Origin: Flavobacteriales bacterium
Lineage (GTDB): Bacteria; Bacteroidota; Bacteroidia; Flavobacteriales; Flavobacteriaceae
DNA: 64,000 bases
NCBI GenBank assembly: GCA_027067965.1
Contig: JAMOUV010000007.1
Span: 1 to 64,000, forward strand
Direction: 5' to 3'
Under the pieces are notes generated by a model. The model was not told the origin of the DNA. It saw only the letters and a program-made list of their open reading frames with translations, and did no database searches. Within the stretch, counting starts at the first letter, position 1; every line of letters starts with the position of its first letter. A program made the position numbers and the translations under genes. Positions 10,727 to 64,000 of this stretch are shown in pieces.

Positions 10727-10729
10727 GGT

Positions 10730-26806: not shown

Positions 26807-27036
26807 TGCCGCGCGAACTTCTTCATACGTTGCCGCGCGAATCTTTTTCGCGTGGTAAGTAATTCCTCCCCAGTTGCCGCACGAATCCTTTCGCATGGCA
26901 AATAATTCCCCATGTTGCCGCGCGAATCCTTTCGCGTGGCAAATAATTCCAAGCTGCTGCGCGAATCCTTTCGCGTGGCAAACAATTCCAATCTGCCGCG
27001 CGAATCCTTTCGCGTAGCAAATAATTCCTCATCCAT
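26807..27036. repeat. REP-like palindromic repeat cluster, left of the RAYT gene
   Basis: One partial and five full units of about 38-48 bp, all in the same orientation. The unit core is GCCGCGCGAATCCTTTCGCG followed by TGGCAAATAATTCC and a short variable tail. Each core contains the stem CGCGAA/TTCGCG with a 4-nt loop. One unit has CGCACGAA paired with TTTCGCATG, which shifts the match but keeps the hairpin. No unique spacers, so not a CRISPR. Confidence 0.85.
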
Positions 27037-27598: not shown

Positions 27599-27663
27599 GT
27601 TTTTAGTACATCAAAAATACATTATTTATATAATTTGAAAGATCTTGAAAGATATTCCCCACG

Positions 27664-27917
27664 TTACCGCGCGAAGTGATTCGCGCGGGAACAAGGGGTG
27701 GAATTCGCGCGGGAACAGATGGGACTAATTTCTTCATACGTTGCCGCGCGAATCCTTTCGCGTGGCAAACAATTCCAATCTACCGCGCGAATCCTTTCGC
27801 GTGGCAAATAATTCCTCCCCAGTTGCCGCGCGAATCTTTCGCGTGTCAAATAATTCCAAGCTGCCGCGCGAATCTTTCGCGTGTCAAATAATTCCAAGCT
27901 GCCGCGCGAATCCCCTT
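27664..27917. repeat. REP-like palindromic repeat cluster, right of the RAYT gene
   Basis: Two diverged units at 27664-27720 (CGCGCGAAGTGATTCGCGCG type), then four regular units and one partial unit, in the same orientation as the left cluster. The last three regular units have the variant GCGTGTCAAATAATTCC. The consensus is shared with the left cluster down to the variable tails (AATTCCAAGC, AATTCCAATC, AATTCCTCCCCAG). Confidence 0.85.
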
Positions 27918-27949
27918 AGAAATGAGATATTTTTAAATCGTAAACTCCC

Positions 27950-49200: not shown

Positions 49201-50220
49201 ATGAAGATAGGCGAAGATTTTGAAATATTAAACCCCGTTTTCCTATGGCTGCTCCTGCTGGTACCGGTGGTGTGGTATTGGCTATACCGGTCGCGGTTAA
49301 AAGAACGTCCGTACTTGCGGTTTTCTTTTGCTTCGAAATTAAAAAATATTTTCACCTGGAGGAATCATTTACACAAACTCCTTCCGCTTTTATTGACTTC
49401 CGTTTTCGTTCTCATGATTTTGGGTATGAGTCGGCCACGAAATGTGGAATCCGGAAAACATGTCAAAAAAACGAAAGGAGTCGATATTGTTTTGGCTATC
49501 GATGTTTCGGCCAGTATGCTGGCACGCGATTTAAAACCGAACCGCTTGGAAGCACTTAAGCGCACGGCTATCGAATTTGTGAATCAACGTCCGAACGACC
49601 GCTTTGGTATTGTATTATATGCCGGAGAAGCATTTACCAAAGTGCCGCTTACTTCCGACAAACAAATTGTGATCAATGCCATCAAGGAAATCGATTTTTT
49701 TAAATTGGTTAATCAAATCGAACAAGGAACCGCCATCGGAATGGGGCTGGCGGTTGCCGTAAACCGGCTCAAAGACAGCAAAGCCAAAAGCAAAGTAATC
49801 ATCTTGATGACCGACGGCGTGAATAACACCGGTTCCATTGACCCCGATACGGCATTGGAATTGGCCAAAGAATTCGGCATTAAAGTTTACACCATAGGTA
49901 TCGGAACCAACGGCATTGCACCTTTCCCTGTCATTACCAGAAACTATACCATTGCCGGCTATCAAATGCAACCCGTGGAAATAGATGAAAAACTTTTGAA
50001 AAAAATTGCGAAGGAAACCGGCGGAAAATATTACCGGGCTACAAATAACAAAAAACTTAAGGAAATCTATAAAGAAATAGATAAATTGGAAAAAACGGTG
50101 GTGGAAGAATTGCGGTTTTATAATTACACCGAATTATACCGCTATTTACTTATTCCGGCACTGCTATTATTGCTTTTGATATGGATTAGTCGTCAAATGA
50201 TTTTAAAAACCAATGTCTGA
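49201..50220 (+). CDS. batA: BatA-like VWA-domain membrane protein
   Basis: 339 residues. N-terminal TM helices ~12-29 and ~59-76, VWA domain ~93-290 with MIDAS DVSAS (from Asp101), DGVNNTGSIDP and a C-terminal TM ~315-334. The Bat system was linked to oxygen tolerance in Bacteroides and to fitness elsewhere. Starts 6 nt after the previous gene and shares one base with batB (TGATG). Confidence 0.92.
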   Translation: MKIGEDFEILNPVFLWLLLLVPVVWYWLYRSRLKERPYLRFSFASKLKNIFTWRNHLHKLLPLLLTSVFVLMILGMSRPRNVESGKHVKKTKGVDIVLAIDVSASMLARDLKPNRLEALKRTAIEFVNQRPNDRFGIVLYAGEAFTKVPLTSDKQIVINAIKEIDFFKLVNQIEQGTAIGMGLAVAVNRLKDSKAKSKVIILMTDGVNNTGSIDPDTALELAKEFGIKVYTIGIGTNGIAPFPVITRNYTIAGYQMQPVEIDEKLLKKIAKETGGKYYRATNNKKLKEIYKEIDKLEKTVVEELRFYNYTELYRYLLIPALLLLLLIWISRQMILKTNV

Positions 50221-51266
50221 TGTTTAGGATAGAAGAACCGGCTTATTTATATTTGTTATTACTCTTGCCTGTTTTGTGGTTTATATTTATTTATTTACAA
50301 TTAAACAAACAAAAAATACGGCGCCAATTCCTTGATGAAAATCTTCGTAAAAAAATAATCTTCGAATACAGCGCCATCAAGCCCTATGTGAAGATGTTAT
50401 GGTGGTCATTTACCTTTTTATTTCTGGTCATCGCCCTGGCTAACCCGCAAATGGGGACCAAAATAGAAACGGTAAAACGCAAAGGAGCCGACATTGTATT
50501 TGCGTTGGATGTGAGTAAAAGTATGCTGGCCGAAGACGTTAAACCCAACCGGTTGGCCAAAGCCAAACAAATCATCTCCAGAGTGATAGACCAACTGATC
50601 TCCGACCGCATCGGCATTGTGGTTTATGCCGGCGAAGCATATCCCGTCTTGCCCATCACCACAGATTATGCCGCCGCCAAATTGTATTTACAAAACATCA
50701 ATACAGACATGGTATCCACCCAGGGAACCGCAATTGCCGAAGCCATTCAACTGGGCATGAATTATTTCGACCGCGATGAAAGCGATAAAATTCTTGTTAT
50801 TATTTCCGATGGAGAAGATCACGGTGAAGATGCCATCCAAGCAGCCAAGCAAGCGGCCGAAAGAGGTATTAAAATCTTTACGGTAGGTATAGGTACGGAA
50901 ACCGGCGGTTTGATTCCCATCCGGCGCAACGGTCAATTGCGCGGATACAAAACCGACCGGGCGGGACAACGGGTCGTTACACGAAGAAATCAAAGTTTAC
51001 TATACCGGCTTGCCAAAGAAACAGGCGGCACATATATCGACGGAAATAATAGTTATACTGCCGCCAAACAACTTATCGATTATCTAAAAAATCTAAACCG
51101 GAAAGATTTTGAAACCAAACGTATTGCCGGATATAAAGATCAGTACCAATGGCCACTGGCAATGGCAATTATTTTCTTTTTATTATACCTATTTACATTG
51201 GAACGTGAAACCGTATGGCTTAAAAAATTGAATTTATTTAATGAAAAAACCGAAAATGATGCGTAA
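50220..51266 (+). CDS. batB: BatB-like VWA-domain membrane protein
   Basis: 348 residues with the same layout as BatA: TM ~8-26 and ~58-75, VWA domain with MIDAS DVSKS (from Asp97), then IISDGEDHGEDA, and a C-terminal TM (WPLAMAIIFFLLYLFTL). BatA and BatB clearly arose by duplication. Overlaps batC by 26 nt if the first ATG is used. Confidence 0.92.
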   Translation: MFRIEEPAYLYLLLLLPVLWFIFIYLQLNKQKIRRQFLDENLRKKIIFEYSAIKPYVKMLWWSFTFLFLVIALANPQMGTKIETVKRKGADIVFALDVSKSMLAEDVKPNRLAKAKQIISRVIDQLISDRIGIVVYAGEAYPVLPITTDYAAAKLYLQNINTDMVSTQGTAIAEAIQLGMNYFDRDESDKILVIISDGEDHGEDAIQAAKQAAERGIKIFTVGIGTETGGLIPIRRNGQLRGYKTDRAGQRVVTRRNQSLLYRLAKETGGTYIDGNNSYTAAKQLIDYLKNLNRKDFETKRIAGYKDQYQWPLAMAIIFFLLYLFTLERETVWLKKLNLFNEKTENDA

Positions 51267-52224
51267 AATAGTAGTCATTGTCATATTCCTATCCGCATTA
51301 TTATCCCACGGGCAAACGCGTAAAGACACCTTGCAAGCATTTGCCAATTTGGGTTGGAATAATTACGAAAAAGGAGATTATGCCGCAGCCGAAAAATACT
51401 TCCGCCAAGCCCTTCAATTCGGAAATTCCGACACGGTTCAATACAATTTGGCCGCCAGTTTGCTACAACAAAACCGTAAAAACGAAGCCCTCGAACATTT
51501 CAGTCAAGTGGCCAAAATTAGTACAAACGACTCCCTCAAAGCCGATGCTTGGCATAACATGGGAAATATCTACTTCGAAAAAAAACAATACGACAAAGCC
51601 GTAGAGGCCTATAAAAATTCCTTAAGATTGCGACCCGGCGATGACGAAACACGCTATAATTATGCCTTGGCCAAAGAAAAATTAAAACAACAACAAAAAC
51701 AAAATAAAAACAAAAAAAATAAGAAGGATAAAAAGAATAAAAATAATAAAGACAACAAAAACAATCAAAACAAAAATCACAAGCAAAACAAAAAGGATAA
51801 CCGGAATAATAAAGACAATCAAAACAAGAACCAAGATCAAAATAAAAAGAACCGAAAGGATCAAAATCAACAAAATAAAAATCAAAAAAATAAAGATCAA
51901 AAGAATAAAGACCAAAATAAACAAAACCAAAAAAATCAGGGCGATAAAAAGAAAAATCAAGATCAAGATCAAAATAAAGGACAAAAGAAAGACGACCAAC
52001 AAAAACAAAAATCCGGAAACCAAAAGGATAAATCTCAACAACCCCAAGGGCAAGGCAATCAAAAACAACCCCAACAGCCCAAAAAACAAAAGAGCAAATT
52101 AAGTCCCGAAGAAACCAAACGCTTGCTTCAAGCCCTGAAAAACAAAGAAAACCAAACGCTGAAAAAGGTCAAATTACGCAAAGCTAAAACCGCCAAACGT
52201 AAGAAAAGCGAGAAAGATTGGTAA
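51241..52224 (+). CDS. batC: BatC-like TPR protein with long Lys/Asn/Gln-rich tail
   Basis: 327 residues. ATG at 51241, or the MRKIVVIV start at 51259 that gives a shorter overlap and a clean signal peptide ending LLSHGQ. TPR repeats ~30-135 (LGWNNYEKGDYAAAEKYFRQAL, NMGNIYFEKKQYDKAVEAYKNSLRL). Residues ~142-280 are almost only Lys, Asn, Gln and Asp, a very basic disordered tail. The extracytoplasmic TPR part would bind BatA/BatB. No BatD or BatE follows. Confidence 0.9.
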   Translation: MKKPKMMRKIVVIVIFLSALLSHGQTRKDTLQAFANLGWNNYEKGDYAAAEKYFRQALQFGNSDTVQYNLAASLLQQNRKNEALEHFSQVAKISTNDSLKADAWHNMGNIYFEKKQYDKAVEAYKNSLRLRPGDDETRYNYALAKEKLKQQQKQNKNKKNKKDKKNKNNKDNKNNQNKNHKQNKKDNRNNKDNQNKNQDQNKKNRKDQNQQNKNQKNKDQKNKDQNKQNQKNQGDKKKNQDQDQNKGQKKDDQQKQKSGNQKDKSQQPQGQGNQKQPQQPKKQKSKLSPEETKRLLQALKNKENQTLKKVKLRKAKTAKRKKSEKDW

Positions 52225-52340
52225 AAAGGAAAATTTAACTATCCATTTCCCATATTTCCCGGTAAATCATTTATTTGAGATGGCTCCGAAAACATTTTTA
52301 TAAAAAATTTTCTCGTAAAAATAAAATAGGCGATATAAAA

Positions 52341-52378
52341 AATTAGATTCGACTAATTTTTTTTAGATTTGTCTAAAA
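52341..52378 (+). promoter_or_regulatory. Promoter with two palindromic DtxR-type operators, feo operon
   Basis: Two dyads 2 nt apart. AATTAG-attcga-CTAATT (52341-52358) and TTTTAGA-tttg-TCTAAAA (52361-52378). The second contains the -7 element TAGATTTG (52364-52371), so a bound protein would block RNA polymerase. Both fit the TTAG...CTAA core known for DtxR/IdeR/MntR sites, and the first gene downstream encodes such a repressor: iron- or manganese-dependent autoregulation is likely. Confidence 0.75.
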
Positions 52379-52386
52379 ATTAAATC

Positions 52387-52794
52387 GTGTCACATTCTCC
52401 GTCCGAAGAAAATTATCTAAAAAGCATTTACAAACTCCTTGAACAGGGACGAAATAGGGTAACAACCAATGAATTGGGCCGGATTTTACATACCAAGGCC
52501 CCTTCCGTTACCGATATGATCAAAAAATTGCATAAAAAAGGTTATGTGGAATATACGCCTTATTACGGGGTTTCCTTTACGGAAAAAGGGCGACTTCGAG
52601 CCAAGGAAATTGTCAGAAAACACCGGTTATGGGAAACCTTTTTGGTAGAAACTTTGCAGTTGCCTTGCGAAACGGTACATGATATTGCCGAGCAACTCGA
52701 GCATGTGCATTCCGAAGAACTTATCGATGCATTGGACCGGTTTTTAAACCATCCCGAAACGGATCCGCACGGTCAATTTATACCTAAAAAATAA
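52387..52794 (+). CDS. DtxR/MntR-family metal-dependent repressor, short form
   Basis: 135 residues, GTG start. Winged helix ~1-65 (SEENYLKSIYKLLEQGRNRVTTNELGRIL, then KAPSVTDMIKKLHKKGYVEY), dimerisation/metal domain ~70-135 (RKHRLWETFLVETLQLP, AEQLEHVHSEELIDALDRFL, DPHGQFIP). There is no C-terminal SH3/FeoA domain, as in MntR. Metal ligands expected in the EHVHSEE region are present. Leads the operon with the FeoA fusion (3-nt gap) and feoB. Confidence 0.93.
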   Translation: MSHSPSEENYLKSIYKLLEQGRNRVTTNELGRILHTKAPSVTDMIKKLHKKGYVEYTPYYGVSFTEKGRLRAKEIVRKHRLWETFLVETLQLPCETVHDIAEQLEHVHSEELIDALDRFLNHPETDPHGQFIPKK

Positions 52795-52797
52795 CCT

Positions 52798-53688
52798 ATG
52801 CGACGAATTGGTAAATATAAAATTAACAGGGAAAATTTGCTCAAAAAGGCCCTGAAAATCCAAACCGAGCATAAAAAATTTGTGCCGGCCGGCCGGAGCG
52901 AAAAAAAATTAGCGGAGCGCTTGGTCTCGGAAGGACTTCTTCGTAAAGAAAATGGAGGTTATCGTCTTACCGAACGAGGAAAAACCGAAGCGGCCGCTAT
53001 TATTAGAAAACACAGGTTATACGAAACCTATCTGGCCAAACGCACCGGTATTGATATAAAAGACTGGCACCGGCTGGCGGAAAACCGCGAACACCATCTC
53101 GACGAAGCCACGATTAACAAATGGGAAAAAGAACTCGGTTTTCCGCTGGTTGACCCGCATGGCGACCCCATTCCCGATGCGGGCGGACAAGTGGAAGTTA
53201 TCGAAAGTATTTTATTGAATGAACTCAAACCCCGGCAGGCGACATTTTACAAGATCGTTCATTTGGAAGATGAACCGGAAGAAATTTACAACCGGTTGAT
53301 TGACAAAGGATTATATCCCGGAGTGATTATTCGGGTAATATTTAATAAAGACAAATGGCAATTGGCATTCGAAGGGCTGGAAATAGAAATTCCCGAGGAA
53401 GAAGCGCGACTTATTTCGGTTAAAAAAGTGGCGGTGGACCCCGCATATTTTAATCTTATCCGCTTATCGAGTTTGAAAGAAGGAGAGAAAGGAAAAATCA
53501 TCCGCTTGTCGGATGCCTTATTCGGACTAACTCGTCAGCGTTTATTGGATTTGGGTTTTGTACGCAATGCGATTGTTTCGGTTTATCTCAAAGCACCCCT
53601 CCGGGAGCCCGTGGCGTATGACATAAAAGGTTCGACAGTGGCCCTTCGAAAAGAACAGGCGGATAAAATATTGGTTATCAAACTATGA
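52798..53688 (+). CDS. DtxR-like protein fused to two FeoA/SH3 domains
   Basis: 296 residues. The N-terminal ~60 residues resemble a reduced winged helix (SEKKLAERLVSEGLLRKENGGYRLTERG) without a clear recognition helix. Residues ~65-130 repeat the DtxR dimer domain (RKHRLYETYLAKRTGIDIKDWHRLAENREHHLDE, DPHGDPIP). Then two SH3-like domains: ~140-212 as in DtxR C-termini and ~218-296 as in FeoA (LSSLKEGEKGKIIRLSD, RQRLLDLGFV, ALRKEQADKILVI). No separate feoA exists here, so this chain probably supplies the FeoA function and may sense metal. ATGA overlap with feoB. Confidence 0.85.
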   Translation: MRRIGKYKINRENLLKKALKIQTEHKKFVPAGRSEKKLAERLVSEGLLRKENGGYRLTERGKTEAAAIIRKHRLYETYLAKRTGIDIKDWHRLAENREHHLDEATINKWEKELGFPLVDPHGDPIPDAGGQVEVIESILLNELKPRQATFYKIVHLEDEPEEIYNRLIDKGLYPGVIIRVIFNKDKWQLAFEGLEIEIPEEEARLISVKKVAVDPAYFNLIRLSSLKEGEKGKIIRLSDALFGLTRQRLLDLGFVRNAIVSVYLKAPLREPVAYDIKGSTVALRKEQADKILVIKL

Positions 53689-55895
53689 AGTTTTTTGGTA
53701 ATAAATGTGAGAGTTGTCAATTAACTCGTGTGGAAGGACTCACGCCGTTGGGAGATGCTACCCGGAATTATGATTTTATAATTGCTTTGGCCGGCAATCC
53801 CAATACCGGCAAGTCCACGCTGTTCAATGCTTTGACCGGCTTGCAGCAACATACGGGTAATTGGCCGGGAAAAACGGTTGCACGAAAAGAAGGCGGTTTT
53901 AAATTCGGAGGGAAAATATACAAAATCATCGATTTGCCCGGCACCTATTCGTTAATGGCCCATTCCGAAGATGAAGAAATAACTCGAAATTATCTTTTTT
54001 TCGAAAAACCCGACGTTACCGTCATCGTGGCCGATGCCACCCGGTTGGAACGTAATTTAAATTTAATCTTACAAATCCTGGCCATAACCGACAAGGCGGT
54101 ATTGGCCCTGAATATGATTGACGAAGCCGAAAAGAAAGGAATTCACATCGACGAACGTCATCTTTCACGTCTGTTGGGCATTCCGGTTGTAAAAACCAAT
54201 GCCCGGATGCGCTTCGGTTTGGAAGCCCTTTTGCAAACCATTGAACAAGTGGCCACCGGTAAAATCAAAACCCGCCCGTTGCGGCTTCGGTTTTCATCTC
54301 CCGAATTACAACGGGCGCTGAAACAAATTGACAAGGAATTGAAAAAAATTCTTCCGGGACTGAAAAACCGGGAATGGATTGCCCTCCGCCTGCTTGCGGG
54401 AGATAAATTTATTGAAGAAAGTTTGCGTCATCCCGGCCGTTTTTACGGCATCCAAACCGCACCCGGCATCGAAGATGCCGTGGAACGCTTATTGCAAAGC
54501 GTAAAGCGCATCCGGATAGAAAATCAAGACCGGTTTTATGATATCATTACGGAAAATATTTATGAAACCGCCCGGCGGATTATCGACGAAACATTAATCA
54601 CGGGTAAAGAACGGATTCACAGTCCGCTCGAAGTAAAACTGGACCGGATTATTACCCACAAAATTTACGGGTTTATCATCATGTTTCTCATGCTGGGTTT
54701 TGTGCTTTGGCTGACCATCAAAGGAGCCAATTATCCTTCGCAACTGCTTGGTGATTTGCTCATCGGAAAGATTTATCCCGCTCTTAAAACGCTAGCCGGA
54801 CAAATGCATTTACCCGGATGGCTTGCGGGGATGCTCATCGATGGCGTATATTTGACCACCGCATGGGTCGTTTCGGTGATGCTTCCGCCGATGGCTATAT
54901 TTTTTCCGCTTTTTACCTTGCTCGAAGATTTCGGATTTTTATCCAGAATCGCCTTTAATTTGGATAAGATTTACAAAAAATCGGGTGCCCATGGCAAGCA
55001 AGCCCTGACGATGACCATGGGATTCGGTTGCAATGCCGCTGCGGTGGTATCCACTCGCATTATCGATAGCCCGCGCGAACGGCTTTTGGCTATTATCACC
55101 AATAACTTTTCCTTGTGTAACGGTCGCTGGCCCGGTCAAATCCTATTGGCCACAATTTTTATCGGCGCCATGGTGCCCGAAAAATGGTCGGGATTGGCGG
55201 CCATGCTGGCCGTAACCACCATAGCCACACTAGGAATTTTTATGTCGTTTGCCGGTTCATGGTTTTTGTCCAAAACATTATTACGCGGCGAACCTTCGGC
55301 ATTTTACTTGGAATTGCCTCCTTACCGCATTCCTCAAATTCGAAAAACTTTATATACTTCCTTTATCGAGCGCACATTAATCGTACTTTGGCGGGCCATC
55401 GTATTTGCCGCACCGGCGGGATTGGTTATATGGCTGGTGGCCAATACCCATATCGGCGGAGAAAGTTTGGCGGCATATATCGTGGATTTTCTGGACAAGC
55501 CCGCCGCTTGGCTGGGGCTTAACGGAATCATTTTGCTGGCCTTCATCATCGGTATTCCCGCCAATGAAATAATTATTCCCGCCGTGCTTATGCTTACGAT
55601 TTTATTATTTGACATTGACCTGACGGGTGTACAAAAAGGTATGCTTACCGAATTATCGGATACCCAAAGTGTCAAGCAAATCCTTACTGCAGGCGGTTGG
55701 ACGCTTCTTACGGCCGTAAATTATATGTTATTGAGTTTGTTGCACAATCCTTGCAGCACCACCATTTATACCATCTATAAAGAAACCAAAAGTATTAAAT
55801 GGACAGCAATCGCCACTTTTTTTCCCTTATTAATAGGGATTATTATTTTGTTTCTCATCACCGTGATTTATTCCCTGACCGCCGGAGCCGTTTAA
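53685..55895 (+). CDS. feoB: Ferrous iron transporter FeoB
   Basis: 736 residues. An N-terminal ~30-residue extension has a CxxC (Cys8, Cys11). G domain: G1 GNPNTGKST (37-45), G3 DLPGTYSL, G4 NMID. The membrane part has about ten helices with the two Gate regions, including CNAAAVVSTRIIDSPRERLLAI, and NPCSTTIYTIYKETKS near the end. It imports Fe2+ across the inner membrane with nucleotide hydrolysis. Translationally coupled to the DtxR-FeoA fusion. Confidence 0.96.
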   Translation: MKFFGNKCESCQLTRVEGLTPLGDATRNYDFIIALAGNPNTGKSTLFNALTGLQQHTGNWPGKTVARKEGGFKFGGKIYKIIDLPGTYSLMAHSEDEEITRNYLFFEKPDVTVIVADATRLERNLNLILQILAITDKAVLALNMIDEAEKKGIHIDERHLSRLLGIPVVKTNARMRFGLEALLQTIEQVATGKIKTRPLRLRFSSPELQRALKQIDKELKKILPGLKNREWIALRLLAGDKFIEESLRHPGRFYGIQTAPGIEDAVERLLQSVKRIRIENQDRFYDIITENIYETARRIIDETLITGKERIHSPLEVKLDRIITHKIYGFIIMFLMLGFVLWLTIKGANYPSQLLGDLLIGKIYPALKTLAGQMHLPGWLAGMLIDGVYLTTAWVVSVMLPPMAIFFPLFTLLEDFGFLSRIAFNLDKIYKKSGAHGKQALTMTMGFGCNAAAVVSTRIIDSPRERLLAIITNNFSLCNGRWPGQILLATIFIGAMVPEKWSGLAAMLAVTTIATLGIFMSFAGSWFLSKTLLRGEPSAFYLELPPYRIPQIRKTLYTSFIERTLIVLWRAIVFAAPAGLVIWLVANTHIGGESLAAYIVDFLDKPAAWLGLNGIILLAFIIGIPANEIIIPAVLMLTILLFDIDLTGVQKGMLTELSDTQSVKQILTAGGWTLLTAVNYMLLSLLHNPCSTTIYTIYKETKSIKWTAIATFFPLLIGIIILFLITVIYSLTAGAV

Positions 55896-56384
<489 letters not shown>

Positions 56385-56415
56385 AAAAAATTGTTTTTTT
56401 TAAATAAAATTTTTA

Positions 56416-56423
56416 TATATTTG
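56416..56423 (+). promoter_or_regulatory. Promoter -7 element (TATATTTG) of the structured leader/RNA
   Basis: Perfect TAnnTTTG. Transcription would start near 56429, just before the first hairpin. Confidence 0.6.
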
Positions 56424-56429
56424 TTGTGT

Positions 56430-56872
56430 GGAAACAAACAAAACTTTCCCGGGAAGTTTAGGGAGGATCCACAAAAAAAGCGCCCCGACTCTGAATTTAG
56501 AGCGCAAGTCGGGACGCTCGGGTGTCGAACCACAGGTTCAACACCGCAAAGTTAGGGATTTGCCGGCAGAAATGCAACAAGCCCTTGTTTGCGGTGCCTG
56601 TGGTAAGACAATCAAGGTTCGTTTGACGAACCGGCGTAAGCGTAGATGCACGTGCATACACTTACGTTACAAAAGTTGCTTTAGCAACACGGCCGCAAGG
56701 CACCGGTAAACAAAGGGCTGTTTAAGGTTTAGGCAAGTCGCTTAGACAAACGGTTTGGTAAGAAAATATCTTAAATGACACACCAATCCACAATAACTGA
56801 AACCGGCAAACACCCCGGCGTTTTAAAGGTGCAAACGGCCAAAAGGAACTGTTTGTTTAACCTTTAAAAACG
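56430..56872 (+). ncRNA. Highly structured RNA or leader, class unknown
   Basis: No protein family fits, but nearly every segment pairs. H1 AAACTT/AAGTTT (56441-56459). H2 a 12-bp stem with one mismatch (56479-56490 with 56507-56518). H3 GGTGT-GAACC/GGTTC-ACACC (56521-56545). H4 GCAAA/TTTGC (56546-56563). S5, a long-range stem of 19 bp in three blocks (56580-56599 with 56698-56719), encloses three hairpins: GGTTCGT/ACGAACC (56616-56632), CGTAAG/CTTACG around ATGCACGTGCAT (56635-56666), GTTGC/GCAAC (56675-56688). A last hairpin of 12 bp with one bulge, plus an inner CAAAC/GTTTG, spans 56819-56872 and ends 8 nt before an ATG. It lacks tmRNA, RNase P, SRP and tRNA hallmarks. It may be a stand-alone RNA, a cis-regulatory leader, or both. 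Confidence 0.6.
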
Positions 56873-56879
56873 TAAAATT

Positions 56880-57443
56880 ATGAAAGCTAAAAACATCAAA
56901 AGTATATTGGCATTTATGCTCTTAATGACATTAACCTTCTCTTTTAGTAATTACAATAAATTTCTTAGAAATCAAGAAAAACACACTAAAAATTTAATTA
57001 CTCAAAAAGAATATAATAGAAATCCATTACGCTTATTACTATTTTTAATAAAAATAGAATATCAAAGTGGGCATAATGATTATATTGACGGTCGATATGT
57101 TGAATGTATAAGAGATGGAGTTTGTTATATTAGAATAAATAAAAAAAGTTCAACTTGGATAGATTTTGATGAGAATATTAAGATTAATGAAGCAAAAATA
57201 GCTATTAATAAAGAAAATGGAACAATTTATCTTGTAATACCACCTTCTGATGCTAATTATAAGAAATATTTAAAACCATTTAAAATTGAAAGTCAAACCA
57301 ACATTGATAAAGGTTTAATAGATATTATATCTCAAAAACTTAAAAAACTTGGATTTAAGAAGCCTCCAAAACCATTACCTATAGGTTCAAAGGTTGAACC
57401 TATCAAATATGGTAATTACCTTCTTGTACCAATAGCTGCTTAA
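56880..57443 (+). CDS. Small exported protein of the island, unknown (paralogue of 58212-58622)
   Basis: 187 residues. Signal-like N-terminus (ILAFMLLMTLTFSFS). Core pattern: DGRYVECIRDGVCYIRI, then a strand-rich stretch KINEAKIAINKENGTIYLVIP and a C-terminal IGSKVEPIKYGNYLLVPIAA. The CxxDGxCY element and the strand order recur in the 58212-58622 protein. AT-rich compared with the core genome. Directly behind the structured leader, and followed by a perfect 14-bp hairpin. Confidence 0.7.
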   Translation: MKAKNIKSILAFMLLMTLTFSFSNYNKFLRNQEKHTKNLITQKEYNRNPLRLLLFLIKIEYQSGHNDYIDGRYVECIRDGVCYIRINKKSSTWIDFDENIKINEAKIAINKENGTIYLVIPPSDANYKKYLKPFKIESQTNIDKGLIDIISQKLKKLGFKKPPKPLPIGSKVEPIKYGNYLLVPIAA

Positions 57444-57447
57444 ATAA

Positions 57448-57480
57448 TAACACCTGGTGGAGTAAATCCACCAGGTGTTA
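57448..57480 (+). terminator. Perfect 14-bp hairpin after the first island gene
   Basis: TAACACCTGGTGGA pairs fully with TCCACCAGGTGTTA around the loop GTAAA. It is not followed by a T run, so it may act as an mRNA-stabilising or bidirectional element instead of a classic terminator. Confidence 0.55.
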
Positions 57481-57515
57481 TACATATTTAAGTATGAATA
57501 AAATTTATTTTTAAA

Positions 57516-58073
57516 ATGAAAAGAATTTTGTTATTCATAATTGGATTAGGAATAATAGTAATAAGTATCTTGTTTTATTTGGCAATTTTTAGAGTAAATC
57601 AGGAAGATTTGAATTACATTTCAAAGTTTCCCCAAATAACGCCTGATGAAATAAAAAAAGAAGAACCGAATTCTGTAATAATTTTTATAGACCCTGCATG
57701 TCCCGGTGCCCCTCGTTTTGGTCCTAAAATAAAAAAAGGAACTGATCTGTTAGATAGTTTAAAAATTCCGTATTACTTAATAGCAGATGTTTTATATTCC
57801 AAAAAAGGTGATTCATTATTGGAGAATTTTATTATGAAGTATGATTACTTAAATAAACCTATTTATTTAATGAGCATAGAACATTTTCCTAATAATTCAG
57901 GTTTATTTAATGCAAGAAGACGTTTAAAGGAATTTATAGCAAATACATGTTATAAATGTGATACTTTACCTTATGGTCCCGGGCTACATATTTTTCTTAA
58001 GAACGGTCAATTCGAAAAAGCTAAATTAACTTATGAATTAAATCCTAAGGAATTAGAAATTTACAAAAAATAA
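57516..58073 (+). CDS. Membrane-anchored protein, possibly thioredoxin-fold, unknown
   Basis: 185 residues. N-terminal TM helix (ILLFIIGLGIIVISILFYLAIF), then an exported domain. SVIIFIDPACPGAPRFGPKIKK followed by DLLDSLKIPYYLIADVLYS looks like the first strand and helix of a thioredoxin fold, with a single Cys in place of CxxC. Another Cys pair occurs in NTCYKCDTLP, followed by GPGLHIFLKNGQ, where thioredoxins have the cis-Pro and TP(T) strand. AT-rich. The redox or adaptor function is a guess from this pattern. Confidence 0.65.
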   Translation: MKRILLFIIGLGIIVISILFYLAIFRVNQEDLNYISKFPQITPDEIKKEEPNSVIIFIDPACPGAPRFGPKIKKGTDLLDSLKIPYYLIADVLYSKKGDSLLENFIMKYDYLNKPIYLMSIEHFPNNSGLFNARRRLKEFIANTCYKCDTLPYGPGLHIFLKNGQFEKAKLTYELNPKELEIYKK

Positions 58074-58163
58074 ACTCGAAAAAGTTTTTTGAAGTTATTT
58101 TACTTTTCAATTAATTAAAAGTGTACATTTATTTATTATACATGAATACTTTAGCATTCCTCA

Positions 58164-58205
58164 AAGTGATAAAATTAATAAATTAAGTGATAAAATTAAT
58201 AAATT
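58164..58205 (+). repeat. Two tandem 21-bp repeats
   Basis: Two exact copies of AAGTGATAAAATTAATAAAT plus T, ending 6 nt before the next ATG. May affect translation initiation or promoter function. Confidence 0.8.
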
Positions 58206-58211
58206 AAATTT

Positions 58212-58622
58212 ATGAAAACACTATTGTTTAATATAATTATTTATCTTTTAATTCCCAATGCTTTAACTCAAAACATCCAAACCGATATCAACTGGAATGG
58301 ACGCTTGTGTAACGGCGGACACGGGATTTGTTATGTTTCTAAAGATGATAAATTAACGGTCAAAACTCAGATTTCATACGATAAGACTTATCATGAGCTG
58401 ATTTTCCGGATTCGGAAAAATCGAATAGATGAGAACTTGCATAACCGACTTTTTTCTCATCCGGTTAAGAAAAATGTTTATCTCTATACCTTTGATGCGC
58501 CCAATTATCTACCTTCAACGGTGTATAAAAGATTGAAAATTACCAAAAGACCCATTAAGAAAGGGGATTACTTATGGATACTACAAAATAACTATTGGGA
58601 ACTAAGAGTTAAACTCGAATAA
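58212..58622 (+). CDS. Small exported protein of the island, unknown (paralogue of 56880-57443)
   Basis: 136 residues. Signal peptide MKTLLFNIIIYLLIPNALTQ. NGRLCNGGHGICYVSKDDK aligns by eye with GRYVECIRDGVCYIRINKK of the first island protein. Both continue with strand-rich segments (HELIFRIRKNR, KNVYLYTF) and end in a G-(D/N)-Y-L-(W/L) strand (KKGDYLWILQNNYWELRV). Its stop and the next start are 1 nt apart, so the pair is translated together. Confidence 0.7.
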   Translation: MKTLLFNIIIYLLIPNALTQNIQTDINWNGRLCNGGHGICYVSKDDKLTVKTQISYDKTYHELIFRIRKNRIDENLHNRLFSHPVKKNVYLYTFDAPNYLPSTVYKRLKITKRPIKKGDYLWILQNNYWELRVKLE

Positions 58623-58623
58623 A

Positions 58624-59775
58624 ATGAGGAACAAAATTCGCTTACTCGGTATATTGTTGGCTTGGACATGGTCTCTTAGTGCCATGCCTCCAAAGACCGA
58701 CCAAAAAGTGGACAGCATTTTGACACAAATGTATATGGAAATACAAGCTGTTCATAAAACCTACGACCTACGCCGTGATGTTTTGTGGCAGGAATTACAA
58801 CAAATCAATAAAGATTTATGGACAGCCAATACACCACAACAGCAGATTTATTTGCTACTACGCAAAGACCGGATTAAAGAACAATTGCATAGATTGAATT
58901 TAGATGAACGTACTCAAATTTTTAAAATACGTTACCTTAAAGGATTGTCTGTTATCCGGATTTTATATGAAAAATTATTGGATTTGGATCATCATTTTGC
59001 TTCCATCGTTACTTTTAGGGAAATCAACAAAATGGCCAATCCCAATAACTATCCCGAATTCCTTAAAGTAAAGGAGATCATCGAACGCAAAAAAGACCGT
59101 AAGCGGTCTTTTGAATTGCCCCCATTGCTTAGTCAAAACTTATATATATCTACCATCGCCACCTTTATTAATCTTTTTAATGCTTCGGCTTCGCCTCAAG
59201 AAAAACAAAAGGACCTCGAAAAAATCCAATGTATTTTGGACTTTACACTGCGGATGCATAACGATTTAAATACCATTTATTTTGAAATGGAATTTCTGCG
59301 TAAAAGCAATGACAAGGTTTTAGAGGATATACAAACACTGTTTAAAGAATACACCAAACCCATAAAATACTTTGTTTCGCTAAGCGAATGCCGGATGAAT
59401 GATGATTGGGACACGATACAAGAAAAACTCAACAGGTATTTGGAACAGCTTCAGGATGCCATGGATAAAGAGGATGAACAACGTATAATGAAAATGCAAA
59501 TTGACCTTAATTTCCCTATCGATCAATTATTGCAGTTTCTGAATAAGTATAATATTCACATCGATCAATCTGCCAAATTTTATGAAAAATTCAAAATCAT
59601 ACTGGATAGTTATGAGAACGAGCCGGTATGTGATGCTTCCTTACCGGCGGCCTATAAGAAATTGAAATCAGATATCGATATTACCATTCAAAAATTTAAT
59701 ACGGCCTATAAACCGGTGGGTATTAACGGAAGTAAATTAAAGGAAATTTTATATGGTATAAATGAATATGAATAA
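58624..59775 (+). CDS. Secreted all-helical protein, unknown
   Basis: 383 residues. Signal peptide IRLLGILLAWTWSLSA. The rest is almost entirely predicted helix with heptad-like patterns (LRRDVLWQELQQINKDLW, DRIKEQLHRLNLDERTQIF, IQEKLNRYLEQLQDAMDKEDE), suggesting a helical bundle or coiled coil. No family recognised. GC content is nearer to the core genome than in the other three island genes. Immediately follows the 136-residue protein. Confidence 0.7.
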   Translation: MRNKIRLLGILLAWTWSLSAMPPKTDQKVDSILTQMYMEIQAVHKTYDLRRDVLWQELQQINKDLWTANTPQQQIYLLLRKDRIKEQLHRLNLDERTQIFKIRYLKGLSVIRILYEKLLDLDHHFASIVTFREINKMANPNNYPEFLKVKEIIERKKDRKRSFELPPLLSQNLYISTIATFINLFNASASPQEKQKDLEKIQCILDFTLRMHNDLNTIYFEMEFLRKSNDKVLEDIQTLFKEYTKPIKYFVSLSECRMNDDWDTIQEKLNRYLEQLQDAMDKEDEQRIMKMQIDLNFPIDQLLQFLNKYNIHIDQSAKFYEKFKIILDSYENEPVCDASLPAAYKKLKSDIDITIQKFNTAYKPVGINGSKLKEILYGINEYE

Positions 59776-60400
59776 TTAAACTTGGTAAAAAATATAAAAT
59801 GAAGCCCCATCTATCTTATCTATAAATTCTAAAATCTTCAATCATTAATCTTCAATGTTATACAATGCAAGAGTCTTCGCTCGAGGGTCAATACGACTCA
59901 CCCTTCGGGTTTGATAAGCGCAGCGATGCCGTGTCCGCCTCAGGCGGGAGGGATCTCATCTTTTCAGTATTTGAGATTCCTCCTCCCGGTGGTCGTCGGA
60001 ATGACATTTTTATCATCCCCCAAAGGATTCCTTGGACGAGGGTCGATGCGACTCACCCTTCGGGTTTGAGAAGCGCAGCGACGCCGTGTCCGCTTCAGGC
60101 GGGAGGGATCTCATCTTTTCAGTATTTGAGATTCCTCCTCCCGATGGTCGTCGGAATGACATTTTTATCATCCCGCAAAGGATTCCTTGGACGAGGGTCA
60201 ATACGACTCACTCTTCGGGTTTGATAAACGCAGCGACGCCATGTCCGTCTCAGGCGGGAGAAATCTCATTTCCGGACTTTAACGTTCACTTTCACTTTGA
60301 CTATTTTAAATCCGAAATCGTTAATCTGAAATCTGCAATCTGCAATCTGAAATCTCCAATCGTTAATCTAAATTCCGTATCTTGCATTAAAATTGAGTGA
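59776..60400 (+). repeat. R2 repeat array with 155-bp tandem period
   Basis: Three copies of R2 begin at 59883, 60038 and 60193, exactly 155 bp apart. Units C and D are nearly identical over the full period, including the spacer TTTTCAGTATTTGAGATTCC. Unit E is truncated and continues into the same tail as copy B (CTCATTTCCGGACTTTAACG, to 60325). After it comes low-complexity AATCTGAAATCTGCAATCTG-type sequence up to the terC-like gene. Reading frames through the array are artefacts of the repeats. Confidence 0.85.
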
Positions 60401-61111
60401 ATGGAAATTTTGCTCCACCCCGAAGCATGGCTGGCCCTTTTGAGTTTGACACTCTTGGAAATCATACTTGGTGTGGACAATATTTTGTTTATTTCCATTC
60501 TTACGGCCGAACTTCCCGCCCATCAACAGTCCAAAGCACGCCGGTTGGGTTTGGCTTTCGCCTTGATTTTCAGAATACTCTTTTTACTGGGCATAAGTTT
60601 TATTATTCGCTTCACCTATCCCATCATTGAATTTTGGAAAGTCTCGTTGAGCGGACGGGATTTGATTTTGCTCTTCGGCGGTTTGTTTTTGCTCTACAAA
60701 AGTACGGTGGAAATTCACGAAAAGGTTACCGGAAGAGAAAGAAAACCCGGCATGAAAATCAAAACGGAATCCTTGGCATGGGTGGTGGTCCAAATTGTGA
60801 TGTTGGATATCGTATTTTCGTTCGACAGCATATTGACGGCCATCGGACTGACCAAACATGTGATTATCATGGTTATAGCCGTTATTATTTCGATGATTAT
60901 CATGATGATTTTTATCAACGACATTGCCGATTTTATTTTGAAGCATCCCACCTTACAAGTATTGGGACTCTCGTTCTTGGTGATGATAGGAACACTCCTT
61001 ATAGCCGAAGCATTTCATTATGAAATACCGAAAGAATACATTTATTTTGCATTTTTCTATTCATTCATTATCGAGTTAATTAACTTAAGAATCAGACCTG
61101 AAAACAAATAA
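60401..61111 (+). CDS. TerC-family integral membrane protein
   Basis: 236 residues with seven hydrophobic segments. TerC motifs with membrane acidic residues: LTLLEIILGVDNILFISIL near the start and VVVQIVMLDIVFSFDSILTAIGL in the middle. Family members include Alx/MeeF-type manganese exporters and tellurite-resistance TerC; Mn2+ or another cation is the likely substrate. It lies at the right edge of the island. Confidence 0.92.
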   Translation: MEILLHPEAWLALLSLTLLEIILGVDNILFISILTAELPAHQQSKARRLGLAFALIFRILFLLGISFIIRFTYPIIEFWKVSLSGRDLILLFGGLFLLYKSTVEIHEKVTGRERKPGMKIKTESLAWVVVQIVMLDIVFSFDSILTAIGLTKHVIIMVIAVIISMIIMMIFINDIADFILKHPTLQVLGLSFLVMIGTLLIAEAFHYEIPKEYIYFAFFYSFIIELINLRIRPENK

Positions 61112-61118
61112 ATTAACT

Positions 61119-61349
61119 ATGATTGAAAATATAAATAAAAAAGGAAATGATTTTGACACGGCCTATAAGATTTACAAGCCGGAGCAAATTGTCAGAATTT
61201 TAGAAAAAGAGAAAAAAGACGGTCAAATTACGGATTTCGAATGGTTAAAACGCAACGACGAGTTTTATGAAGTTTTCGTGATAAAATACAAAAACGGTGA
61301 GTCTAAGAAAATTTATTTTAACGTTACCGATTTACTTAATCTTTATTAG
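61119..61349 (+). CDS. Small hypothetical protein
   Basis: 76 residues, 7 nt after the TerC gene. NDFDTAYKIYKPEQIVRILEKEKKDGQITDFEWL then FYEVFVIKYKNGESKKIYF. No family recognised; cytoplasmic. Its last 53 nt also encode the signal peptide of the next protein in another frame. Confidence 0.6.
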   Translation: MIENINKKGNDFDTAYKIYKPEQIVRILEKEKKDGQITDFEWLKRNDEFYEVFVIKYKNGESKKIYFNVTDLLNLY

Positions 61350-61947
61350 TACGCACGCCCAACAATTGGCATTGCTTAAGTATAAAGGCGGCGGGGATTG
61401 GTATGCCAATAAACGGACTTCCTTGCCTAATTTGATTGCCTTTGCACGGGCCCATGACTTTGCTATCGATGAAGAGCAAGCCGTGGTGGAAAGCGACAAT
61501 CCCGAAATTTTTCAATATCCTTTTGTACATATGACGGGACACGGACGTGTATTTTTTGACGAAGCGGATGTTAAAAATCTGAAAAAATACCTCGAATCGG
61601 GCGGATTTTTGCATATTGACGATAATTACGGCATGGATAAATATGTGCGAAAAGAAATAAAAAAATTATTTCCGGACCGGGAGTTAAAAGAATTGCCTGC
61701 CGATTTTGAGATATTTCACAATTATTATGATTTTCCCGGCGGACTTCCCAAAATTCATGAACACGACGGCAAACGGCCCCAGGCCTTCGGCATCTTTATC
61801 GATGACCGGCTGGTATTGCTCTATACTTACGAAACGGATCTGGGCGACGGATGGGAGTCATACGAAATTCACCACGACCCGCCCGAAAAACATGAATTGG
61901 CGCTCCGGATGGGTTTAAATATTTTATATTATGTGTTTACCAACTGA
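61297..61947 (+). CDS. DUF4159 domain secreted protein
   Basis: 216 residues from a GTG at 61297, chosen because it gives a full signal peptide (FILTLPIYLIFISTHAQ); without it the protein would lack one. DUF4159 signature: LALLKYKGGGDWYANKRTSLPNLIAFA, YPFVHMTGHGRVFFD, LESGGFLHIDDNYGMDKY. The fold resembles a glutamine-amidotransferase-like domain found in Bat-type and gliding-related proteins; function not known. Confidence 0.85.
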   Translation: MSLRKFILTLPIYLIFISTHAQQLALLKYKGGGDWYANKRTSLPNLIAFARAHDFAIDEEQAVVESDNPEIFQYPFVHMTGHGRVFFDEADVKNLKKYLESGGFLHIDDNYGMDKYVRKEIKKLFPDRELKELPADFEIFHNYYDFPGGLPKIHEHDGKRPQAFGIFIDDRLVLLYTYETDLGDGWESYEIHHDPPEKHELALRMGLNILYYVFTN

Positions 61948-62013
61948 AGTTTTGTCTGTAACGAAAATGAAGAAACGCCCAAAATTCATTTTAAAAAAAT
62001 CCGGAAAATTTCC

Positions 62014-63231
62014 ATGAAAATACTTATCGAAAATATCAAACAATTAATTCAAGTCCGCGAAGAAGTGCCGGCTCCGCTCCGCGGAAAAACCATGGACGAA
62101 CTACCCGTTATCGACAATGCATTTCTGTTGATTGAAGACGGTATTATTTCGAACTTCGGCCCCATGGAAGAAATGCCCGTCATCCATGCCGACCAAGTAA
62201 TTGATGCAAAGGAACGTATGGTTTTTCCCGCTTGGGTCGATTCACACACACACTTGGTTTTTCCCGAATCACGTTACGGGGAATTTATCGATAAAATAAG
62301 AGGATTGTCTTACGAAGAAATTGCCGCCAAAGGAGGCGGAATTTTAAACTCGGCACGCCGGTTACGCCAAATGTCCGAAGACGAACTTTACGAGAAAGCC
62401 GAAAAACGTCTCCGCTTGCTTAAACAATATGGCACGGGTGCAGTGGAAATTAAATCCGGCTACGGTTTGAGCACCGAAGGAGAATTAAAAATGCTTCGGG
62501 TAATCAAACGCTTGAAAGAAAGCGAAAACATTCCGGTTAAAGCCACTTTTTTGGGAGCACATGCCGTTCCCGAAAATATGAATAAAGCGGATTATGTTCG
62601 GTTAATCGTCGAAGAAATGCTACCCGAAATAGCCAAGCATAATCTGGCCGATTATGTGGATGTCTTTTGCGAAACCGGTTACTTCGATACGCAGGATACG
62701 GAAATCATTTTGGACGCGGCCGCCAAATACGGGCTCAAACCCAAGATTCATATCAATCAATTTACTGCTATAGGCGGCATTGAAATAGCGGTAAAATATC
62801 ATGCTGTTTCGGTGGACCATTTGGAAGTGATGACTGAACAGGATTTCCGGGCACTTCAACACTCCGACACGGTTGCTACGGTATTGCCGGGATGTTCCTT
62901 TTTTATCCATATTCCTTATGCGCCTGCCAAAGAAATGATTGAACGAAATATCACCTTGGCTCTCGCCACGGATTTTAATCCCGGATCGGCTCCCTCGTGG
63001 AATATGAATTTTATGGTCTCGCTTGCATGTATCAAACAAAAACTTACCCCCGCTCAAGCCATCAATGCCGCTACCGTCAATGCGGGCTATGCTTTGGAAC
63101 TGCAACACGAAGCCGGTATGATTAGAAAAGGTACGCCGGCCAGGGTTTTTCTCAGCATCCCCTTGACCCATTACGGCGAATTGCCTTATTATTTCGGTAT
63201 CAATCCGGTGGAAAAAACAATAGGGTTTTAA
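62014..63231 (+). CDS. hutI: Imidazolonepropionase
   Basis: 405 residues. Third step of histidine breakdown: opens imidazolonepropionate to N-formiminoglutamate. Metal-dependent amidohydrolase with HxH in WVDSHTHLVFPESR, YGTGAVEIKSGYGLS, FLGAHAVPENM, HINQFTAIGG and ALATDFNPGSAP. No other hut gene is in the window. Confidence 0.95.
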   Translation: MKILIENIKQLIQVREEVPAPLRGKTMDELPVIDNAFLLIEDGIISNFGPMEEMPVIHADQVIDAKERMVFPAWVDSHTHLVFPESRYGEFIDKIRGLSYEEIAAKGGGILNSARRLRQMSEDELYEKAEKRLRLLKQYGTGAVEIKSGYGLSTEGELKMLRVIKRLKESENIPVKATFLGAHAVPENMNKADYVRLIVEEMLPEIAKHNLADYVDVFCETGYFDTQDTEIILDAAAKYGLKPKIHINQFTAIGGIEIAVKYHAVSVDHLEVMTEQDFRALQHSDTVATVLPGCSFFIHIPYAPAKEMIERNITLALATDFNPGSAPSWNMNFMVSLACIKQKLTPAQAINAATVNAGYALELQHEAGMIRKGTPARVFLSIPLTHYGELPYYFGINPVEKTIGF

Positions 63232-63249
63232 AGGAGACATATTTTTTTG

Positions 63250-63257
63250 TATATTTG
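63250..63257 (+). promoter_or_regulatory. Promoter -7 element (TATATTTG) of rpmE2
   Basis: Perfect TAnnTTTG, 26 nt before the L31 ATG. Confidence 0.6.
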
Positions 63258-63283
63258 CAATTCGAAAACAAGACAAGAAAATC

Positions 63284-63535
63284 ATGAAAAAAGGTATTCA
63301 TCCGGAAAACTACAGATTAGTGGCATTCAAAGACATGTCAAACGGCGATATATTTCTGATGTATTCGACCGCCGAAGCCAAAGAAACCATCGAAATTGAC
63401 GGACAGGAATTACCCTTGGTCAAAGTGGAAATTTCACGTACTTCACATCCTTACTACACCGGTAAGATGAAATTGGTGGATACGGCCGGACGTATTGATA
63501 AATTCCGCAGGAAATACGCCAAATTCAAAAAATAA
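63284..63535 (+). CDS. rpmE2: 50S ribosomal protein L31 type B
   Basis: 83 residues. KGIHPENYRLVAFKDMSNGDIFLM and the C-terminal TSHPYYTGKMKLVDTAGRIDKFRRKYAK are L31 hallmarks. No Cys at all, hence the zinc-free type B (C-minus) form. Own promoter and terminator. Confidence 0.96.
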   Translation: MKKGIHPENYRLVAFKDMSNGDIFLMYSTAEAKETIEIDGQELPLVKVEISRTSHPYYTGKMKLVDTAGRIDKFRRKYAKFKK

Positions 63536-63556
63536 TTTGTACTAAAAAAAATTAAA

Positions 63557-63583
63557 ATTCCGGTTTTTTGCCGGATTTTTTTT
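63557..63583 (+). terminator. Rho-independent terminator after rpmE2
   Basis: Short stem TCCGG/CCGGA with a T-rich loop, followed by a T run. Confidence 0.75.
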
Positions 63584-63637
63584 AAATGAAAATTTTTTCT
63601 TAAATTAGCATACTAAAACAGAATAAAACTATTGGCT

Positions 63638-64000
63638 ATGAAAAAAGTCGTATTATCATTAATTATATTTTCTTTCCTTTCACTGGGTTCATTGAAGGCC
63701 CAGTTCACCAACAAAGGTTATGTGGTGATTAACGGAAGTTTCTCATTGGTAGTCAAAAATTTGGACTTTGTCAATGAAGGAACCGTCGAGATGAAAGGTA
63801 ACGGTAAACTCTATATGCGCGGAGGTGCTAACGGCGGAGATTTAATCAATAACGGTACTTTCGGAGACAACACGCTGTCGGAAACTTATCAAGTTATTTT
63901 CGACGGAGATGCCGATCAAGCCATCAAAGGAAGCAATGAGCCGTTTTTCGATCAATTGATTACCGCTCAAACCGGTACTGTATCGGTAACGCAAGAAATT
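63638..64000 (+). CDS. Secreted protein, N-terminal part (cut by window end)
   Basis: 121 codons up to the window edge. Signal peptide KKVVLSLIIFSFLSLGSLKAQ, then repeated short strand motifs (GYVVINGSFSLVVKNLDFVNEGTVEMKGNGKLYMRGG, NNGTFGDNT) as in beta-helix or filament-like surface proteins. A T9SS sorting domain may follow beyond the window. A weaker -7-like TAAATTAG is at 63601. Function unknown. Confidence 0.8.
   Translation, partial: MKKVVLSLIIFSFLSLGSLKAQFTNKGYVVINGSFSLVVKNLDFVNEGTVEMKGNGKLYMRGGANGGDLINNGTFGDNTLSETYQVIFDGDADQAIKGSNEPFFDQLITAQTGTVSVTQEI

Follow-up and report, generated by a model that had tools for sequence, protein, structure and literature searches.

Between a promoter and an orphan gene at position 56880, the 64,000-nt stretch of Flavobacteriales DNA analysed here (the window) carries some 450 nt packed with potential stems, and the question is what this segment does. 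A sequence-only reading had left it as either a new non-coding RNA or a cis-regulatory leader. The second option is the one favoured here. Segment 56428-56879 is very probably a cis-acting leader of the exported-protein gene, because the homology of its copies spans the leader and stops at the start codon. It appears not to be one single new RNA but one class (class A) in a genus-wide set of different leaders with one layout. The features on which the argument draws are these, with positions in the window:

56129 to 56240, no strand: dispersed repeat, left border of a low-GC island; its copy at 60219-60330 (92%) is the right border
56354 to 56382, forward: run of 29 A upstream of the leader promoter; no homopolymer in the window is longer
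56391 to 56393, forward: TTG of a candidate -33 element, followed by a run of 8 T; placed by the consensus TTTG/TAnnTTTG
56416 to 56423, forward: -7 promoter element TATATTTG, from the sequence (consensus TAnnTTTG)
56428 to 56879, forward: class A structured 5' leader, from its fold and homologues; predicted +1 at 56428
56428 to 56472, forward: 5'-terminal stem P1 (56428-56435/56465-56472) around a hairpin at 56439-56461, consensus fold
56479 to 56518, forward: hairpin 3 (56479-56489/56508-56518), changed on both sides at two pairs
56519 to 56546, forward: hairpin 4 (56519-56531/56535-56546), changed on both sides at one pair
56529 to 56604, forward: alternative 8-bp pairing of ACCACAGG (56529-56536) with CCUGUGGU (56597-56604), from the alignment of copies
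56576 to 56722, forward: long-range stem (56576-56604/56692-56722) enclosing three hairpins, consensus fold
56818 to 56873, forward: last hairpin (56818-56840/56845-56873), changed on both sides at one pair
56854 to 56869, forward: 3' box TGTTTAACCTTTAAAA, common to other leader classes; putative recombination junction
56880 to 57443, forward: gene of a 187-aa orphan protein with a signal-like N-terminus
57447 to 57481, forward: 15-bp perfect inverted repeat 3' of the gene, a possible transcript end, with no T-run
57516 to 59775, forward: three further orphan ORFs (185, 136 and 383 aa) in the same low-GC island

The clean promoter of the sequence-only reading was borne out: in Bacteroidota the -7 element reads TAnnTTTG, a consensus that TATATTTG at 56416-56423 fits. 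With the G of this element placed at -5, the spacing given for Flavobacterium johnsoniae in PMC6847099, the leader is predicted to start at 56428. This leader is structured beyond chance. Folding of 56416-56900 gave -171.5 kcal/mol versus -123.5 +/- 6.4 for 100 dinucleotide shuffles (z -7.5), none of which was as good, so that the description of a stem-packed segment before the ATG also holds. When 160-nt segments were scanned (798 over the 64 kb, plus strand, 20 shuffles each), those of the element reached z values of -7.3, -5.9 and -4.1; only segments in repeat arrays at 26.8-27.9 kb fell below -7.3, and a hairpin region at 57.4 kb gave -6.7 and -5.9. The reverse strand of 56416-56900 has a z of -6.7, so the strand is not chosen by folding alone, and counts of G-U versus A-C were uninformative about it.

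The hairpins named beforehand correspond to stems of the consensus fold, with slightly different ends. The final one is present, but it ends 6 nt rather than 8 nt before the ATG; it covers the box together with part of the region where translation starts, with a pairing probability of 0.68 over -20..-1. The hairpin inside P1 is 56439-56448/56452-56461, and P1 itself shows a two-sided change at one pair (A-U/G-C). The long-range stem, of 28 pairs with bulges, is formed in the window copy. Complementarity of ACCACAGG and CCUGUGGU is kept in all three full class A copies (with one G-U in the copy on contig C13, see below). The pairing excludes hairpin 4 and the tip of the long-range stem, and is present in the minimum-energy fold of the C13 copy; by its sequence it is a candidate switch.

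The Rfam check that had been proposed was run, and no known class was matched. The covariance models of Rfam 15 found no family at gathering scores in the whole window, four matches, all below gathering, in 56250-57000 at E values up to 10, and none in 11 loci with leaders of classes A, B and C. ARAGORN detected no tRNA or tmRNA gene in 50000-64000, and the RNA can still be called unclassified. A coding leader was rejected on account of gaps of 1, 2 and 4 nt, among others, between class A copies, which argue against a conserved reading frame. The forward strand of 56000-58200 has no terminator-like site, which argues against transcription attenuation.

DNA searches of the window's own genome (G000) and 59 relatives located class A in the own genome, in the window and at 21702-22148 of contig C13 (76%), and in the sister genome G005, with a complete copy on contig C35 (82%) and fragments at the contig ends of C40 and C58; there was none at E<=0.001 in the other 58 genomes. 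Class A is present in two of the nine genomes of the genus. Outside the genus, neither a DNA search of 397 family genomes nor a covariance model of the first 150 nt run against them returned a convincing copy. A class A pattern scan of a collection of species genomes hit five places. Two of these lie on contigs of the MAG Flavobacteriales bacterium isolate 4281-140 (JAMONV01), and the 4281-140 MAGs were obtained in work on deep-sea vent deposits (PMC9793634). The pattern also matched Ruegeria, Atribacteria and Anaerolineales contigs; by our own estimate, a few chance matches are expected for so short a pattern.

Homology between class A copies runs from the promoter to the ATG, which has the same position in all three full copies, and ends there, with different genes behind. 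Between the window and G005, identity by segment is 0.81-0.94 within the leader but falls to 0.39 in the flank upstream of it and to 0.47 in the coding sequence. Between the window and C13, it is 0.69-0.83 by segment in the leader and 0.84-0.86 in the upstream flank, so that here the leader is not more conserved than its flank; the shared flank makes these two a duplication-like pair with different genes behind. The C13 copy looks like a decaying locus, since its -7 box has an A in place of a nearly invariant G, its long stem is damaged and the expected lipoprotein gene is apparently deleted. On G005:C40 the leader is interrupted just 5' of the start codon (locus L008, about 10495-10797); the first 112 nt of the insert also occur on G005:C35 (91%), and the insert is IS-like by eye, with a 75-aa ORF that has no Pfam match.

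The compensatory changes that had been proposed as a check were found for class A as a whole. The alignment had five rows, of which three are full copies (from two genomes) and two are fragments; among its 503 cells 94.0% are paired, and 9 of 141 pairs are changed on both sides versus 4.5 +/- 1.4 in shuffled controls (1 of 500 as high), with at most 3 in slid controls. These pairs sit in stem 1, hairpins 3 and 4, two of the three hairpins within the long stem and the last hairpin. The long-range stem, which had been put forward as the key evidence, has none, and it is broken at 7 of its 28 pairs in C13 and at 2 of 28 in G005:C35; its role as the key evidence is not supported. Column-shuffled and refolded alignments gave 5.1 +/- 2.1 two-sided pairs and as many as 11, and class A covariation alone is therefore modest. 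The consensus energy was -139.3 versus -71.1 +/- 5.1 for 100 column-shuffled alignments, and the reverse strand folds nearly as well (-143.4). Invariant columns make up 228 of 281 paired versus 94 of 165 unpaired columns, gapped columns left out.

Two other loci, G000:C4 and G004:C25, were reached through the 16-nt box TGTTTAACCTTTAAAA; their leaders are GC-rich and unrelated, and define classes B and C, respectively. With at most one mismatch, the box occurs at eight places in the nine genomes of the genus. All five exact matches and one of the three mismatched ones precede leader genes, and those on G000:C10 and G007:C57 do not. Class B is multi-copy, with copies or parts at further loci in G000, G005 and G001; of the 14 places with its promoter signature, 10 belong to class B leaders or a contig-end piece and 4 lie in other sequence. 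The copy B:G5C41 is devoid of the 5' part including the 5' stem, and two copies, B:G0C13b and B:G0C13c, are shortened. Besides the copy on C25, G004 carries another class C leader, and G003 has a relative at 75%. Short class B matches were also seen in G002, G003 and G006, the one in G003 being class C. DNA searches with one class did not return the other classes beyond the 3' box and the promoter. The three classes are thus unrelated in sequence but have the same layout, before exported orphan proteins in the genus: a promoter CTTGA..., a T-rich spacer, ...TTTG, a stem near the 5' end, hairpins, an A/U-rich stretch and the start codon.

Compensatory changes strongly uphold the class B structure, as judged on 9 distinct rows and the 5' stems only. 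In stem 1 and hairpin 2, 11 of 20 pairs are changed on both sides versus 7.3 +/- 1.3 in shuffles (1 of 500; slid controls at most 5), and 27 cells versus 12.7 +/- 2.9 (0 of 500; slid at most 10). Across eight copies, duplexes of the 5' stems formed by a copy's own arms have a mean of -15.8 versus -9.2 kcal/mol for crossed arms. For class C stem 1, with arms picked by hand, the values are -16.5 to -18.4 kcal/mol with the own partner versus -4.8 to -7.1 between two genomes; the class C alignment was poor and was left out of the counts.

A covariance model of the first 77 columns of class B gave no convincing match outside the genus in the 397 family genomes. At E<=0.1, outside-genus matches to the models (two genomes for class A, three for class B) led to five loci, none of which showed, by eye, the layout before an exported gene. 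The 3' end of the leader matched other genera in 4 of the 397 genomes at E<=0.001, and no GC-rich leader was seen in about 600 nt at each locus, read by eye only, unfolded and not turned to match the strand; two of the four matches lie inside an open frame which we take to be exbD. The string TTTAACCTTTAAAA..ATGA was also rejected as a leader marker outside the genus. It had 49 matches in 44 of the 397 genomes versus 11 for a reversed control, and at 14 loci (plus-strand only, of 30 fetched) the upstream 200 nt had an ordinary GC of 0.17-0.40, so the box is partly a family-wide start context.

The first ORF behind the leader is signal-like, by a simple rule, at 17 of the 18 readable loci versus 21 of 55 ORFs of at least 100 aa in the window. 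The 18 loci (3 class A, 12 class B, 3 class C) are not independent cases, because copies are partly related, and on C13 it is only a 53-aa membrane protein that makes the class A copy count as signal-like. The exception, behind a class B leader at C13:25533, is devoid of about 57 N-terminal residues of its relative on G001:C316 (68% identity over the rest). Seventeen of the 18 first ORFs were compared with Pfam or NCBIfam (a 66-aa ORF at G004:C25 was left out), and none matched at the curated cut-off; the one at G004:C27 resembles a metalloproteinase family below it. Among seven later ORFs compared with NCBIfam, four are GLPGLI proteins. Such genes (TIGR01200) lie 3' of small exported proteins at four loci with class B and C leaders (L093, L101, L089 and L074). 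In the island of the window, the 185-aa membrane-anchored orphan (57516-58070) has, we presume, a thioredoxin-like look, and had no Pfam or NCBIfam match above cut-off.

One gene unit stands behind two leaders. On G000:C4, a class B leader precedes a 286-aa lipoprotein with a glycine-rich C-terminus, starting with TTG or ATT and not ATG, and then a 53-aa hydrophobic protein (locus L076, 8233-9268, minus strand). On G000:C13, the same unit follows the class A leader: the two loci agree at 89% over 719 bp that begin with the 53-aa gene, and at 90% over a further 51 nt that begin at the box and reach into the start of the lipoprotein gene. The window and C13 show the converse, a common leader and upstream flank with a different gene. 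Both junctions lie at the box and start codon, and from these alignments we infer that leaders and genes are swapped by recombination at the box. On G005:C35 a relative of the 286-aa lipoprotein is split into 75 + 200 aa and followed by a 52-aa hydrophobic ORF. That the lipoprotein and the 53-aa protein are a toxin/immunity pair is a guess from their layout. The lipoprotein has no match in phage and plasmid records, and a predicted fold of this glycine-zipper lipoprotein was discarded (mean pLDDT 43.7).

Folding of the full leaders placed a stem at or within a few nucleotides of the predicted mRNA 5' end. Eight of the 12 known class B leaders were examined, and the predicted +1 is paired in all eight (P >=0.98), as it is in two class A leaders (P >=0.99; 0.40 in the C13 copy); about 5 nt are unpaired at the predicted 5' end of class C. 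When only the first 100 nt were folded, the 5' end was more paired than in shuffles for the window copy (equalled by 3 of 60) and for three class B leaders (by 0 of 60), but not for the G005 class A copy (47 of 60) or two class C leaders (59 and 57 of 60), leaving the 5' stem less clear for these; for the class B leaders and C:G4C25, the starts used in these folds were off by 1-4 nt, and P(+1) was not used there. Over -20..-1, pairing was 0.62-0.85 in class A, 0.10-0.60 in class B and 0.41-0.68 in class C, ranges that include rows with mis-set start offsets (B:G0C4, B:G0C13c and C:G4C27). In the same fold set, box positions were mis-set for A:G5C35 and B:G0C1; for mis-set rows, only the 5'-end values were relied on. 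Structure in the start region lowers initiation in F. johnsoniae (PMC6847099), and since the start region of class A is paired, this class may be gated at translation.

Homopolymers mark these promoters too. The window has four runs of at least 9 A or T in 64 kb, and only the 29-A run reaches 10; the class A spacer holds only 8 T. In class B and C promoters, a T-run of 9-12 was found in 10 of 12 matched (5 and 6 in the others), the G000:C4 promoter being outside the 12, as it is cut by a contig end. The four class B promoters of G005 have T-runs of 12, 10, 10 and 9, the last merged with TTTG, and the span from TTG to TTTG in class B and C promoters is 23-33. These T-runs suggest phase variation, being of the kind expected after slipped-strand switching, with the qualification that their lengths were compared across different loci, not alleles, and may include homopolymer assembly errors.

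That three unrelated sequences have the same layout points to a function of the architecture and not of a binding core. In the reading that we prefer, and to which we give about even chances, the segment is a modular 5' leader of the mRNA of the gene at 56880, one of at least three classes, that protects and insulates the mRNA. A sigma-A type promoter would start the transcript in, or within a few nucleotides of, the 5'-terminal stem, and GC-rich hairpins, an A/U-rich box (GTTTAACCTTTAAAA or similar) and the start codon of an exported orphan would follow. The terminal stem and the hairpin array would shield the 5' end and body of the leader from ribonucleases, as 5'-terminal stems stabilise E. 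coli mRNAs (titles cited in PMC3997798). The mRNA would thereby be long-lived and insulated, and its leader would accept whatever gene stands behind the box. Class A would add a last hairpin paired over the box and -20..-7, which would have to open before translation. Leaders and genes would recombine at the box. Structure, copies, layout, cargo type and the gene with two leaders were computed; from them we infer transcription, start site, mRNA stabilisation, translation gate and recombination step. A wider proposal, tentative and rather doubtful, is a contingency system in which, at many loci of the genus, a promoter with a slippage-prone homopolymer, an interchangeable hairpin-array leader and an exported orphan would be combined, with genes swapped by recombination at the box and each unit switched on and off by tract length, giving a shuffled, phase-variable repertoire of surface proteins or weapons that share one post-transcriptional module. 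The exported orphans in question include the glycine-zipper lipoprotein with its small hydrophobic partner and the small secreted proteins with GLPGLI partners.

Other explanations have to be weighed against a protecting or insulating leader. A regulator sensing a ligand, a protein or temperature (riboswitch-like or a thermometer), whose alternative folds, for example hairpin 4 against the 56529-56536/56597-56604 pairing, act on the last hairpin, would account for the conserved ACCACAGG/CCUGUGGU complementarity in three copies and its use in the C13 fold. It would also suit the class A last hairpin, which lies over the translation start region with pairing of 0.62-0.85 across -20..-1, in view of the reduced initiation known for F. 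johnsoniae (PMC6847099). Against it, the three classes showed no sequence core in common beyond promoter and box, unpaired columns are less conserved than paired ones, neither a forward terminator-like site nor an Rfam riboswitch was found, and the cargo genes have no evident common pathway; we consider it unlikely. An independent trans-acting RNA whose gene happens to lie before the ORF would suit the large size, the strong structure and the promoter of the segment, and also the nearly equal foldability of the reverse strand. We nevertheless hold it to be distinctly improbable, since the ATG stands at the same place in the three full class A copies, a start codon follows the box in classes B and C too, and no forward terminator-like site marks the end of the leader.

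The hairpins might instead be recombination or transposition sites of a mobile cassette, with RNA structure as a by-product of a DNA-level element. The many copies in differing gene neighbourhoods, often at contig ends, the dispersed repeats flanking the window copy and the gene with two leaders joined at the box would fit. But the loci that were read are oriented from promoter to start codon, in class B, as in two class A copies, stem 1 starts at the predicted +1, and three different sets of hairpins do the same job. In addition, phage and plasmid records contain no match to class A, and viral contigs none to the class A, class B and box patterns, so that this origin seems to us improbable. 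That the leader is a neutral multi-copy relic of segmental duplication, its hairpins unselected, draws on the identity of the window/C13 upstream flank, which is not below that of the leader. Two-sided changes exceed those of shuffles in classes A and B, a class C stem fits no partner but its own, and between the window and G005 the leader is kept (0.81-0.94) where the flank is lost (0.39); such a relic is therefore very improbable indeed.

A structured 5' leader is as such of a known kind, and we put the new part at its modular, swappable use. Among the titles and abstract openings listed in our literature search, which covered few subscription papers, none describes such leaders. The phase-variable Vlp lipoproteins of mycoplasmas have a common 5' block with a homopolymer in the promoter spacer. 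Like them, the genes studied here combine a promoter block common to different lipoproteins with T-runs in the -33/-7 spacer; the Vlp type, however, is not known to have a structured leader, and switching is here putative. Among mRNAs with leaders of the ompA, papA and aprE type, several encode exported proteins. The stabilising 5'-UTR stem-loops of that type (titles cited in PMC3997798) resemble the present leaders in having a stem at or near the mRNA 5' end. They differ in that here there are many hairpins, up to about 450 nt, and several interchangeable classes common to many unrelated genes, for which stabilisation is putative. In Flavobacterium psychrophilum, 64 structured 5' regions are reported to have no known function (PMC9723704). 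These regions and the Flavo-1 motif come from the same family as our leaders; those named there precede genes such as pheA, hisG and alaS, and Flavo-1 matches lie sense or antisense, whereas the leaders here have no Rfam match.

A structured leader normally belongs to a single gene or pathway, and here unrelated structures share one layout before unrelated exported genes. If the leaders act generically, by stability, insulation or start-site gating, architecture and not sequence can be selected, and they would be a natural set of parts testable in Flavobacterium. Through the homopolymers, phase variation could be tested directly in read data. One expression module for a changing set of surface proteins would, if true, be unusual.

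Two repeat families of the window were also noted. A Y1 transposase gene (27032-27598, minus strand; Pfam Y1_Tnp) is flanked by GC-rich GCCGCGCGAATCCTTTCGCGTGGC repeat arrays within 26800-27920, an element that we take to be REP/RAYT-like; there was no sign that the leader belongs to it, as the four island ORFs have no transposase match and the element at 26.8-27.9 kb has another repeat. The dispersed repeat that flanks the low-GC island at 56000-56240 and 59870-60390 has related sequence on G000:C13, and within it, at 59882-60269, 155-nt tandem units carry CGCAGCGACGCCGTGTCCGCCTCAGGCGGGAGG.
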